DNA of 64,000 bases, taken from NCBI RefSeq assembly GCF_013868135.1, contig NZ_JACEMU010000016.1:1-64000 (forward strand). Direction: 5' to 3'. The position numbers and the translations under genes are program-made. The notes beneath the pieces are model-generated. The model saw nothing but the letters and a program-made list of their open reading frames with translations, was not told the DNA's origin and searched no databases. Each line of letters begins with the position of its first letter. The stretch's first letter is position 1. This DNA is from Paracoccus sp. S1E-3. Lineage in GTDB: Bacteria; Pseudomonadota; Alphaproteobacteria; Rhodobacterales; Rhodobacteraceae. Shown here one piece after another: positions 18,525 to 20,488 of this stretch.

Positions 18525-18969
18525 GCTCCTCTTGCTGCCACCTTTTTCACGAGTGAGTTCGGAAATGTCCATCGATCCGGCCGCAGGAGGCGCCGGTGAG
18601 CCGTCAGTTTTTCAAGCCTGCGGCGGAAGATGGGAGGAATCGCGACTCGTGACTGGCGACGCGCACATCCCGGTCATCCATGCGCGCCGGGCCGGCCAAT
18701 CCTGCGGCGCAACGGCGGCAGACTGCCACAGCAAAGCAACTTCAAGAGGGAAAGGCTCGTGACGCCACGTTACAACGCGCCTGCAGCAATCAATCTGCTA
18801 AAAGCGTGGCACCATAGCACAGACTTATTGCAAAACCTGACCGAAACGTCAGATTTTGACATGCGCTAACATTGAAACCGATCTATTTTTCATAACAAAA
18901 CCGTCATGTTGGACGTGCTTTTTTCCAGGGTCTTGCATTTGCTGCATAGCAGCATTGAGCGATTGGCCG
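18525..18969. other. AT-richer regulatory region, no supported gene
   Basis: 445 bp between the divergent YcxB-like gene and the DUF1127/sRNA locus. From about 18770 the composition is clearly less GC-rich than the surroundings. It holds an inverted repeat CTGAC-N6-GTCAG (18837-18852) followed by ATTTTG, a T run at 18919-18924, and the TGCTGC-ATA-GCAGCA palindrome listed separately. Short open frames on the plus strand have no RBS or motif. Confidence 0.5.
18940..18954. promoter_or_regulatory. Perfect palindrome TGCTGC-ATA-GCAGCA
   Basis: A perfect 6+3+6 inverted repeat lies 15 bp upstream of the candidate -35 of the DUF1127/sRNA transcript. It contains CTGC-N3-GCAG, which I recall as the reported binding sequence of PhaR, the polyhydroxyalkanoate regulator of Paracoccus denitrificans. 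Assignment to PhaR is inference; it is at least a good operator candidate. Confidence 0.45.
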
Positions 18970-18997
18970 TTGTGCAACCGCAGCATTACGTCCATCT
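18970..18997 (+). promoter_or_regulatory. Candidate RpoH-type promoter of the DUF1127/sRNA locus
   Basis: TTGTGC (18970-18975) and CCATCT (18992-18997) are separated by 16 bp. The -10 fits the CCATnT core of heat-shock sigma factors. Transcription would start near 19004, giving a 5' leader of about 55 nt before the DUF1127 ATG. The corresponding Rhodobacter sphaeroides locus is driven by RpoHI/RpoHII, which supports this reading. Confidence 0.5.
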
Positions 18998-19059
18998 TCA
19001 ACCCAACGGCGCAGATGGCTGCACCGTCCGAAACGAACCGTAGATGAAGCGATAGAACA

Positions 19060-19284
19060 ATGGCCGCAACGAACACTCTGAACCACATCGCCCGCACCGA
19101 ACGCGCTGCCGGCACCGGCTTCATGGGCATGATCGTGCGCTTGCAGGAAGCCCGCGCCCGCCGTGCCGTGTATCGCCAGACCGTCTCGGAACTGTCCAAT
19201 CTGTCGAACCGCGAACTGGCCGACCTGGGCATTCACCGCAGCATGATCACCCGGATCGCCACCGAGGCCGCCTGGGGCAAGTAA
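19060..19284 (+). CDS. ccaF1: DUF1127 small protein, CcaF1-like
   Basis: A 74-residue Arg-rich protein. The N-terminal half has helix GFMGMIVRLQEARARRAVYR; the C-terminal half is the DUF1127 (YjiS-like) motif VSELSNLSNRELADLGIHRS, followed by MITRIATEAAWGK. In Rhodobacter sphaeroides the DUF1127 protein RSP_6037 (CcaF1) is an RNA-binding protein co-transcribed with the CcsR1-4 sRNAs and involved in their maturation. The same order is seen here: the stop codon is 10 bp before the first CCUCCUCCC-loop hairpin. The RBS is weak. Orthology is inferred from family plus synteny. Confidence 0.85.
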   Translation: MAATNTLNHIARTERAAGTGFMGMIVRLQEARARRAVYRQTVSELSNLSNRELADLGIHRSMITRIATEAAWGK

Positions 19285-19290
19285 TTCACC

Positions 19291-19366
19291 GATACCCGAC
19301 CCTCCCTCCTCCCTGGGTCCGGGTTCAGGTGGCGCCTCCCTCCTCCTCCCTGGAGGCGCCACCGCC
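19291..19366 (+). ncRNA. CcsR-type sRNA unit 1
   Basis: Two hairpins. The first (19294-19324) has a 9-bp bulged stem with CCTCCTCCC at 19305-19313; the second (19328-19363) has a perfect 12-bp stem and the loop CTCCTCCTCCCT. The unit begins at an ATAC (19292-19295) that recurs at the start of every unit. It begins directly after the DUF1127 stop codon, so it is the 3' UTR of that mRNA and must be released by processing, as RNase E does for CcsR RNAs in Rhodobacter. Confidence 0.8.
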
Positions 19367-19368
19367 AA

Positions 19369-19452
19369 GATACGACGGGACCCTCTCCTCCTCCCTGGGT
19401 TCTGTTGGTGCAGCGGCGCCCCCGTCTCCTCCTCCCTCGGGGACGCCGCTTG
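19369..19452 (+). ncRNA. CcsR-type sRNA unit 2
   Basis: Two hairpins. The first (19375-19405) is a 9-bp stem with two G-U pairs and CCTCCTCCC at 19387-19395. The second (19412-19450) is a 13-bp stem with one mismatch and CCTCCTCCC at 19428-19436. Unit boundary ATAC is at 19370-19373. The stems differ in sequence from unit 1 while the loop is kept, as expected if the loop is the functional part. Confidence 0.78.
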
Positions 19453-19458
19453 ACACCG

Positions 19459-19531
19459 GATACGTCCGCCCCTCCTCCTCCCTGGGCGCGACGTCAGCGA
19501 TGCGGGCTTCTCCTCCCTGCCTGCGTCGCAC
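19459..19531 (+). ncRNA. CcsR-type sRNA unit 3
   Basis: Two hairpins. The first (19462-19494) pairs ACGTC/GACGT and CGCCC/GGGCG with CCTCCTCCC at 19474-19482. The second (19497-19529) is an 11-bp stem with two G-U pairs and the slightly shorter loop motif TCTCCTCCC (19509-19517). Unit boundary ATAC is at 19460-19463. Its second stem is closely related to that of unit 4. Confidence 0.78.
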
Positions 19532-19533
19532 CC

Positions 19534-19606
19534 CATACGCGGCCCCCTCCTCCTCCCTGGGGCTGCGATAGCGATGCAGGCTCCTCCTCCCTGCCTGTAT
19601 CGCACC
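19534..19606 (+). ncRNA. CcsR-type sRNA unit 4
   Basis: Two hairpins. The first (19538-19567) has a 9-bp stem with CCTCCTCCC at 19549-19557. The second (19571-19603) has an 11-bp stem with CCTCCTCCC at 19583-19591. Compared with the second stem of unit 3, a T-G pair has become T-A and a G-T pair has become A-T, so pairing is maintained despite base changes. Unit boundary ATAC is at 19535-19538. Confidence 0.78.
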
Positions 19607-19690
19607 TATACGCGGCCCCTCCTCCTCCCTGGGCCAGCGTTGTCGCGGCGGCGCCCCTCCTCCTCCCTGGGCGCCGCCGCTTTTCTTTTG
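19607..19690 (+). ncRNA. CcsR-type sRNA unit 5 with terminator hairpin
   Basis: Two hairpins. The first (19610-19640) has CCTCCTCCC at 19621-19629. The second (19645-19680) is a perfect 12-bp GC stem with the loop CTCCTCCTCCCT and is followed by TTTTCTTTT, so it doubles as the terminator. Unit boundary ATAC is at 19608-19611. Rhodobacter sphaeroides is described with four CcsR RNAs; this would be a fifth. Confidence 0.8.
19645..19689 (+). terminator. Terminator of the DUF1127/sRNA transcript
   Basis: A perfect 12-bp GC-rich stem (19645-19656 with 19669-19680) is followed by TTTTCTTTT. It is the tenth hairpin of the array and separates it from rlmJ, which starts 25 bp later. Confidence 0.92.
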
Positions 19691-19714: not shown

Positions 19715-20488
19715 ATGTTGTCCTATCAGCACATCTATCACGCCGGGAACGCGGCCGATCTGCACAAGCACGCCCTGCTGGCCTGGGTGCTGGATTACCT
19801 GACCGCCAAGGACAAGCCGCTCAGCTATGTGGAAACCCATGCCGGGCGCGGGCTTTACGATCTGTCCTCGGCCGAGGCCCGCAAGACCGCCGAGGCCGAG
19901 GCCGGCATCCTGCGCGCCGAGCGCGCCGATTGGCTTCCCGAGGATCACCCGCTCATGCGGGCGCTGGCATCGGTGCGGCGGCAATATGGCGTCAACGCCT
20001 ATCCCGGATCGCCGCTGATCGCGCAGCACTTCCTGCGCCGGGGCGACAGCACCCACCTGGCCGAGATGCATCCCGCCGAGCATGACGCCCTGGCAGAGGT
20101 TGCGCGTGGCGCCACGCTGTATCGGCAGGACGGGTTCCAGATGGCCCGCGCCGTGGCCCCACCGACCCCGCGCCGGGGGCTGATGCTGGTCGATCCCAGC
20201 TACGAGGTGAAGACCGATTACGCCGACATTCCGCCGTTCTTTCAGGATATTGCCCGCAAGTGGAATGTCGGCACGCTGGCGCTATGGTATCCGATCCTGA
20301 CCGATGACCGCCAGCGCGGCATGATCGCGCGGCTGTCGCAGGCATTCCCCGACGCGCTGAAGTCCGAAGTCCACTTCCCGCCCGCCAAGCCCGGCCACGG
20401 CATGGTCGGATCGGGGATGTTCGTGGTCAATCCGCCCTGGGGACTGGGCGAGGAAGCGGCCCGGATCGAGGCGCTTTTCCGGGGCTGA
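19715..20488 (+). CDS. rlmJ: 23S rRNA (adenine(2030)-N6)-methyltransferase
   Basis: SAM-dependent enzyme that N6-methylates A2030 of 23S rRNA. 257 residues, close to the family length. The N-terminal signature MLSYQHIYHAGNAADLHKH is diagnostic, YVETHAGRGLYDL is the SAM-binding motif I, and DPSYE is the catalytic motif IV (DPPY in the E. coli enzyme). The last part (GSGMFVVNPPWGL) is also typical. It lies directly after the sRNA terminator with no obvious Shine-Dalgarno, so it probably has its own promoter within or overlapping the terminator. Confidence 0.96.
   Translation: MLSYQHIYHAGNAADLHKHALLAWVLDYLTAKDKPLSYVETHAGRGLYDLSSAEARKTAEAEAGILRAERADWLPEDHPLMRALASVRRQYGVNAYPGSPLIAQHFLRRGDSTHLAEMHPAEHDALAEVARGATLYRQDGFQMARAVAPPTPRRGLMLVDPSYEVKTDYADIPPFFQDIARKWNVGTLALWYPILTDDRQRGMIARLSQAFPDALKSEVHFPPAKPGHGMVGSGMFVVNPPWGLGEEAARIEALFRG

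Follow-up and report, generated by a model that had tools for sequence, protein, structure and literature searches.

The window analysed here, a stretch of 64,000 nt from the 3.73-Mb genome of Paracoccus sp. S1E-3, holds ten hairpins at 19294-19680, in the gap between a DUF1127 gene and an rlmJ-like gene, which raises the question of what this array is and whether its stems are maintained as paired RNA. These hairpins form a CcsR / alpha-r14 ('cuckoo') sRNA cluster of an already described kind, in a compact five-unit Paracoccus form. Taken as a whole, it is very probable that the array is co-transcribed with the DUF1127 gene, processed to two-hairpin sRNAs and acts by blocking ribosome-binding sites. 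The features of the locus are as follows:

18942-18952, no strand assigned: candidate PhaR-type box CTGCATAGCAG, matching CTGCNNNGCAG and kept upstream of the DUF1127 gene
18970-18998, plus strand: promoter-like pair TTGTGC / CCATCTT with a spacer of 16; TTGTGCA and CCAT are unchanged in ten species
19060-19284, plus strand: ccaF1-like gene of a DUF1127 protein, 74 aa (PF06568, E 3.8e-13)
19294-19324, plus strand: hairpin H1 of unit 1, 9 bp with one bulge; 0 pairs vary in ten species
19328-19363, plus strand: hairpin H2 of unit 1, 12 bp; 2 pairs with two-sided changes between species
19373-19407, plus strand: hairpin H3 of unit 2, 11 bp; 7 pairs with two-sided changes
19413-19449, plus strand: hairpin H4 of unit 2, 11 bp and one mismatch; 2 pairs with two-sided changes
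19462-19494, plus strand: hairpin H5 of unit 3, 10 bp; 4 pairs with two-sided changes
19497-19529, plus strand: hairpin H6 of unit 3, the first hairpin of the original prediction, 11 bp; 1 pair with two-sided changes
19538-19567, plus strand: hairpin H7 of unit 4, 9 bp in the window; the least conserved, with 73.3% of alignment cells paired
19571-19603, plus strand: hairpin H8 of unit 4, the second hairpin of the original prediction, 11 bp; 2 pairs with two-sided changes
19610-19640, plus strand: hairpin H9 of unit 5, with a stem almost unchanging across species
19645-19689, plus strand: hairpin H10 of unit 5 with TTTTCTTTT, 12 bp followed by a T-run, terminator-like by eye
19715-20488, plus strand: rlmJ-like gene (PF04378, E 1.6e-48), the downstream neighbour, outside the array

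The motif CTCCTCCC is present in the loop of all ten hairpins, and CTCCTCCCTG occurs nine times in the whole genome, with 9/9 occurrences lying inside the array on one strand. The predicted folding energy of the array is -210.7 kcal/mol, whereas shuffled sequences give -146.2 ± 5.0 kcal/mol (z -12.8). In the minimum free energy fold the arms of H7 pair with the arms of H9 (19538-19640), so these two hairpins do not form there, and this predicted long-range pairing can compete with the separate hairpins. A terminator scan, limited to loops of 3-8, returned one match (0.8 expected) with a stem smaller than that of H10, and a scan for sigma-70 promoters returned none. The sense and antisense ORFs across the array were rejected as coding sequences, being judged mechanical reads through the repeats.

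The original prediction concerned H6 and H8, whose nearly identical stems were said to differ by compensatory changes that keep the pairing. Both hairpins proved real, each with an uninterrupted 11-bp stem and an 11-nt loop (shuffle z of -4.8 and -5.9, respectively), and their stems differ at exactly three pairs, from U-G to U-A, from G-C to G-U and from G-U to A-U. The label of compensation has to be withdrawn, as all three changes are one-sided via G-U and none is two-sided; such changes agree with pairing yet do not amount to compensation. The loops, which had been described as constant, share an identical CTCCTCCC, though a single base separates the complete loops (TTCTCCTCCCT vs TCCTCCTCCCT). 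When three random substitutions were simulated in the stem, all pairs were kept with a probability of 0.05-0.07 at a transition share of 0.62, which is the value of the clade, and of 0.21-0.28 with transitions only. Since random substitutions keep the pairing with a probability of 0.05-0.28, the H6/H8 pair alone is weak, suggestive evidence.

A wider comparison was made with orthologous arrays. Ten Paracoccus species (the window, G119, G004, G016, G105, G037, G008, G099, G096 and G066) have all ten hairpins, in an unchanged order and aligning one to one, and the hairpins of P. xiamenensis (L039), P. aurantiacus (L040) and P. isoporae (L041) are those of G119, G016 and G037, respectively; G038 and G089 hold eight exact loop motifs each. 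The structure behind the whole-array counts and the ten-species tree-null and single-pair tests was taken from the window, a choice that biases the counts towards pairing. In the whole-array alignment 1000 of the 1038 cells were paired, and in that of H6 and H8 (20 rows from ten species, 18 distinct) 198/198 cells. Two-sided changes were found at 23 of the 105 pairs, in 41 cells, compared with 11.5 pairs and 15.3 cells in shuffles, and 0/500 shuffles reached either value; a weaker measure, the number of further pair types, was reached by 22/500 shuffles. When the partner was slid by 1-3 columns, at most 8 pairs and at most 15 cells showed two-sided change. Under a tree null, in which one column per pair was re-evolved on a tree built from the flanking DNA, the 41 two-sided cells of the whole array stood against 8.7 ± 3.0 (p=0.001). 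By single hairpin, the two-sided cells of H2, H3 and H5 were significant and those of H4, H6, H7, H8, H9 and H10 were not, with H1, invariant in the ten species, left out of this test.

For H6 and H8, the three variable sites show UA/UG/CG, GC/GU/AU and AU/GU/GC across species, and thus both ends of a full pair exchange exist at each of them. G-U states fill 31/54 cells at these three pairs, and their frequency would favour RNA over a DNA cruciform. The shuffle control for the two hairpins was only marginal (36/500 shuffles). Under the tree null, H6 and H8 jointly had 4 two-sided cells vs 0.8 ± 0.9 (p=0.008; paired p=0.0005), with p=0.062 for H6 alone and p=0.059 for H8 alone. Within a genome H6 and H8 differ at a mean of 2.4 positions, compared with 1.9 between orthologues, and so the H6/H8 duplication appears to predate the clade, without homogenisation.

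In an R-scape-like single-pair test with a tree-based null, 0/105 pairs reached E<0.05 in the ten species, which is probably owed to too few sequences. The genus-wide set started from 119 loci (some genomes twice), of which 17 without three spaced motifs and a T-run were dropped, leaving 102 loci and 95 distinct sequences; the anchor patterns removed a further 21, leaving 74 sequences, 62 of them distinct. Among these 62 terminal-hairpin sequences, 1/32 pairs was significant; it belongs to H10, and no significant pair lay outside the structure. The inner pairs of H8, paired in as few as 35/62 rows, are out of register genus-wide because stem length varies. For the ten hairpins and their orthologues, two-sided change exceeds the tree null at the level of the array (p=0.001), and strong covariation at the level of the pair is not demonstrated, since the single-pair tests gave 0/105 and 1/32. 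Exchange of 3′ arms between hairpins of the same array weakened the mean dG to -10.7 kcal/mol, compared with -19.5 kcal/mol for the real hairpins (1132 hairpins, 110 loci), and seven or more pairs were formed by 981/1132 arm-swapped hairpins vs 1127/1132 real ones. Overall, the sequence comparisons support the view that the stems are maintained by pairing: selection on RNA structure, which had been claimed from two sister hairpins, is borne out through the orthologues (0/500 shuffles; tree null, p=0.001), though the two hairpins alone were not strong evidence for it.

The original prediction had also set RNA structure against a DNA repeat, which is a false choice, as the array is a tandem repeat as well, with a 74-nt period (Tandem Repeats Finder on the window; 2.4 copies, 84%). 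Its proposal that the array grew by unit duplication is supported by the motif counts and by a repeat in G064, another species. Across 110 loci, one per genome, the exact loop motif was counted 3 to 17 times per locus, with 8, 10, 12 or 14 copies in 83/110 loci; contig ends truncate some of the loci, and loops of variant sequence are not included. In G064 (L168, 660-1523), part of the array recurs at a spacing of 188 nt; three of the copies share 98-100% identity over 300 nt and a fourth has 63%, a recent expansion. At least one spaced motif pair is carried by 123/125 genomes of the genus. No match to the array was found in G020, a Paracoccus genome 99% complete, nor in G103, which is only 71% complete. 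As a separate observation, some Paracoccus genomes have CTCCTCCC hairpin pairs on other contigs as well (L009 and L011; G001 and G003), and these are possibly duplicated or mobile arrays.

The assignment to the family was examined with Rfam and gene order. At the gathering threshold, nothing was found in the window. A relaxed search of the locus returned CcsR1 (RF02791) four times, with E from 1.2e-8 to 2.5e-4 and 26.9-41.5 bits, and ar14 (RF02344) twice, with E of 3.9e-9 and 1.7e-7; the best scores in the window, 41.5 and 54.9 bits, do not reach the gathering scores of 65.3 for CcsR1 and 58.8 for ar14, respectively. Of four Paracoccus relatives tested for ar14, two pass the cut-off of 58.8, namely G004 (61.6 and 60.7 bits) and P. 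aurantiacus (66.7 bits), and two narrowly miss it, namely P. xiamenensis (57.7 bits) and P. isoporae (56.9 bits). Sub-threshold scores are also seen in the control loci of Cereibacter johrii (L059) and Luteovulum azotoformans (L055), where CcsR1 matches the first unit with 106.2 bits and the three sister units with 39.4-54.1 bits (only 39.4-46.6 in Cereibacter johrii), with 3/4 tandem CcsR1 matches below the gathering score in each locus. Matches to Rfam 6C, Scr3202, ar7 and HOTTIP_1 were rejected (E 0.04 or worse).

The array has a DUF1127 gene directly upstream on the same strand, loops that carry CCUCCUCCC, or the CUCCUCCC core within it, in every hairpin, and stems that are free in sequence yet paired; CTCCTCCC lies on the gene's strand in 64/71 named DUF1127 loci. 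These features recall published ones: CcsR1-4 derive from the ccaF1 3′ UTR via RNase E and CcaF1 (PMC10253847, PMC8625941, PMC8307010), CCUCCUCCC loops are called an anti-Shine-Dalgarno motif (PMC3927594, PMC10746234), and the cuckoo family is described with 2-4 hairpins, free helices and a fixed loop (PMC4504443). A term search of the main text of PMC5107571, which deals with sRNAs of P. denitrificans, gave no mention of CcsR or Rfam.

The loops complement GGGAGGAG, of which 52 sites were found in the genome outside the array. With the array excluded, 14/52 sites lie 4-10 nt before an ATG vs 4/102 for the reversed-octamer control, a count that is not specific because any Shine-Dalgarno-like octamer is expected before ATG. 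Eight of the 14 sites open frames of >200 aa, and a ninth precedes a 94-aa PaaB-family protein. Seven of the eight long frames match families, namely Peripla_BP_6, an ABC ATPase, two DctP solute-binding proteins, an enoyl-CoA hydratase, a carbohydrate kinase and a nucleotidyl transferase, the last of which we take to be GlgC-like; the eighth (L205) had no family match. In the comparison with G119 and G016, where 29 of 31 sites were readable, 4/14 candidate sites keep the octamer before a protein ≥92% identical (4 in G119 and 2 in G016).

The make-up of the array, the conservation of its structure, its gene order, its family matches and its changes in copy number are observed here. To these a way of working may be added in which transcription, processing, target repression and dose are modelled mainly on the R. 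sphaeroides and S. meliloti literature. A stress-type promoter would give one transcript with the DUF1127 protein, five two-hairpin units in the 3′ UTR and a terminator. RNase E, aided by the DUF1127 protein, probably cuts this transcript at single-stranded AUAC junctions before the odd hairpins. ATAC precedes 40/50 odd hairpins and 0/50 even hairpins in the ten species, so odd-even pairs are taken as the units; it is missing at 10/50 odd hairpins, and the use of AUAC as a putative cut site is our own suggestion from the sequence. In each unit two rigid stems would each display an anti-Shine-Dalgarno loop (CUCCUCCC), and base pairing of these loops with the GGGAGGAG/GGAGG of ribosome-binding sites would lower translation. 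With stem sequence free as long as it is paired, the stems would drift and the loops remain fixed, and gain and loss of units may tune the dose.

The hairpins could instead serve mainly as a decoy for proteins or ribosomes, for instance to titrate Hfq or the DUF1127 protein or as a mimic of the 16S tail, and not pair with chosen mRNAs. Many identical loops per transcript and free stems suit a dose-dependent decoy, as does the number of exact motifs, which runs from 3 to 17 in a locus, with some loci truncated at the end of a contig. According to PMC8307010, raised CcaF1 disturbs the maturation of CcsR, which also interacts with Hfq. The same paper reports FlhR mRNA (flhR) as a target of CcsR1-4, and predicted multi-mRNA targets are given for the alpha-r14 RNA NfeR1 (PMC10746234); with these against it, a decoy as the main role seems unlikely. 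It is very improbable that the conserved feature is a DNA inverted-repeat array, either a repeat element or a set of palindromes to which a protein binds, and that RNA folding is a by-product: a tandem repeat is present and like hairpin pairs lie on further contigs, for example in G001 and G003, but the motif keeps to the strand of the DUF1127 gene in 64/71 named loci, 9/9 genomic CTCCTCCCTG sites share one strand, and DNA palindromes are not expected to keep G-U, found in 31/54 cells at the variable H6/H8 pairs. Hardly any weight falls on the array as only a strong Rho-independent terminator or 3′-end stabiliser of the DUF1127 mRNA, since H10 with its T-run looks terminator-like but termination would seem to need neither ten hairpins in which an unpaired 8-mer stays fixed nor duplications of the unit, and the known homologues are separate sRNAs (PMC10253847, PMC8625941).

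The region upstream of the CcsR / alpha-r14 locus bears on its possible control. The box CTGCATAGCAG lies ~110 nt before the DUF1127 start, and TTGCTGCATNGCAGCA has a single exact occurrence in the genome, upstream of the DUF1127 gene, and 26 occurrences with ≤2 mismatches vs 2 for the control. The form CTGCNNNGCAG was found upstream in 63/74 Paracoccus genomes (one locus each; 36 of 110 Paracoccus loci were too short and were left out) vs 2/117 control windows, and in 27/66 other named loci vs 3/522 control windows; these other loci have the box in 27/60 cases with loop motifs and 0/6 without. It is absent from 11/74 Paracoccus genomes and from more than half of the other loci, Cereibacter included. 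In 44/46 loci holding both, the box stands 17-18 nt before a TTGTGCA-N13-18-CCAT block, which is found in 50/74 genus loci vs 0/73 control stretches, and also in Cereibacter johrii L059, its exact form being absent from L055. In the window this promoter-like block (18970-18998) is sigma-32-like, resembling promoters of heat-shock sigma factors, and may be of the RpoHI/RpoHII type. One RpoHI/HII promoter has a -35 TTG and a -12 TAT (PMC10673084).

The genome encodes PhaR (PF05233). Two PhaR-type boxes were also located in the DNA between neighbouring genes which, from a reading of the sequence, we take to be a phasin gene and a PHA synthase gene; a family search of a 60-residue piece from this neighbourhood gave no match. 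The box form CTGCNNNGCAG is an R. sphaeroides PhaR site according to PMC12542648, the main text of which does not contain 'DUF1127', and a limited search of open-licence PMC papers found no PhaR-CcsR or PhaR-DUF1127 link. We tentatively propose, as one joint reading, that the DUF1127-cuckoo RNA operon could be a direct PhaR target in most Paracoccus and many other Rhodobacteraceae, in which PHB buildup would make PhaR, the PHB-granule-sensing repressor, leave the box, followed by a burst of anti-Shine-Dalgarno RNA and lower translation of uptake and carbon-entry genes. In that reading the affected genes might be those of the solute-binding proteins, the enoyl-CoA hydratase and the GlgC-like enzyme, a proposal that is possible rather than probable.

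The analysis places a described sRNA family in Paracoccus as a compact ten-hairpin form, provides ten-species evidence for stems kept by pairing, and shows that one-sided G-U changes should not be taken for strong covariation. Should the PhaR-type box be functional, it would link this sRNA family to carbon-storage sensing, and carbon storage would be coupled to translation control if the PhaR reading is true.

Among known systems, the array resembles CcsR1-4 of Rhodobacter/Cereibacter sphaeroides in having, behind a DUF1127 gene, two-hairpin units in tandem whose loops carry CCUCCUCCC, and a similar TTGTGCA-CCAT block stands upstream of the CcsR locus in Cereibacter johrii; it differs from CcsR1-4 in having five units instead of four, short linkers from unit to unit, diverged stems and sub-gathering Rfam matches. 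With alpha-r14 (RF02344; NfeR1, SmelA075) it shares the anti-Shine-Dalgarno loops, and some of its relatives pass the Rfam cut-off, whereas alpha-r14 RNAs are described as three-hairpin sRNAs (PMC10746234) and the array has ten hairpins. The fixed loop motif and the free stems are those of the 'cuckoo' family (Reinkensmeier and Giegerich 2015, as given in citing papers), whose members have 2-4 hairpins, whereas the Paracoccus array runs ten hairpins together.
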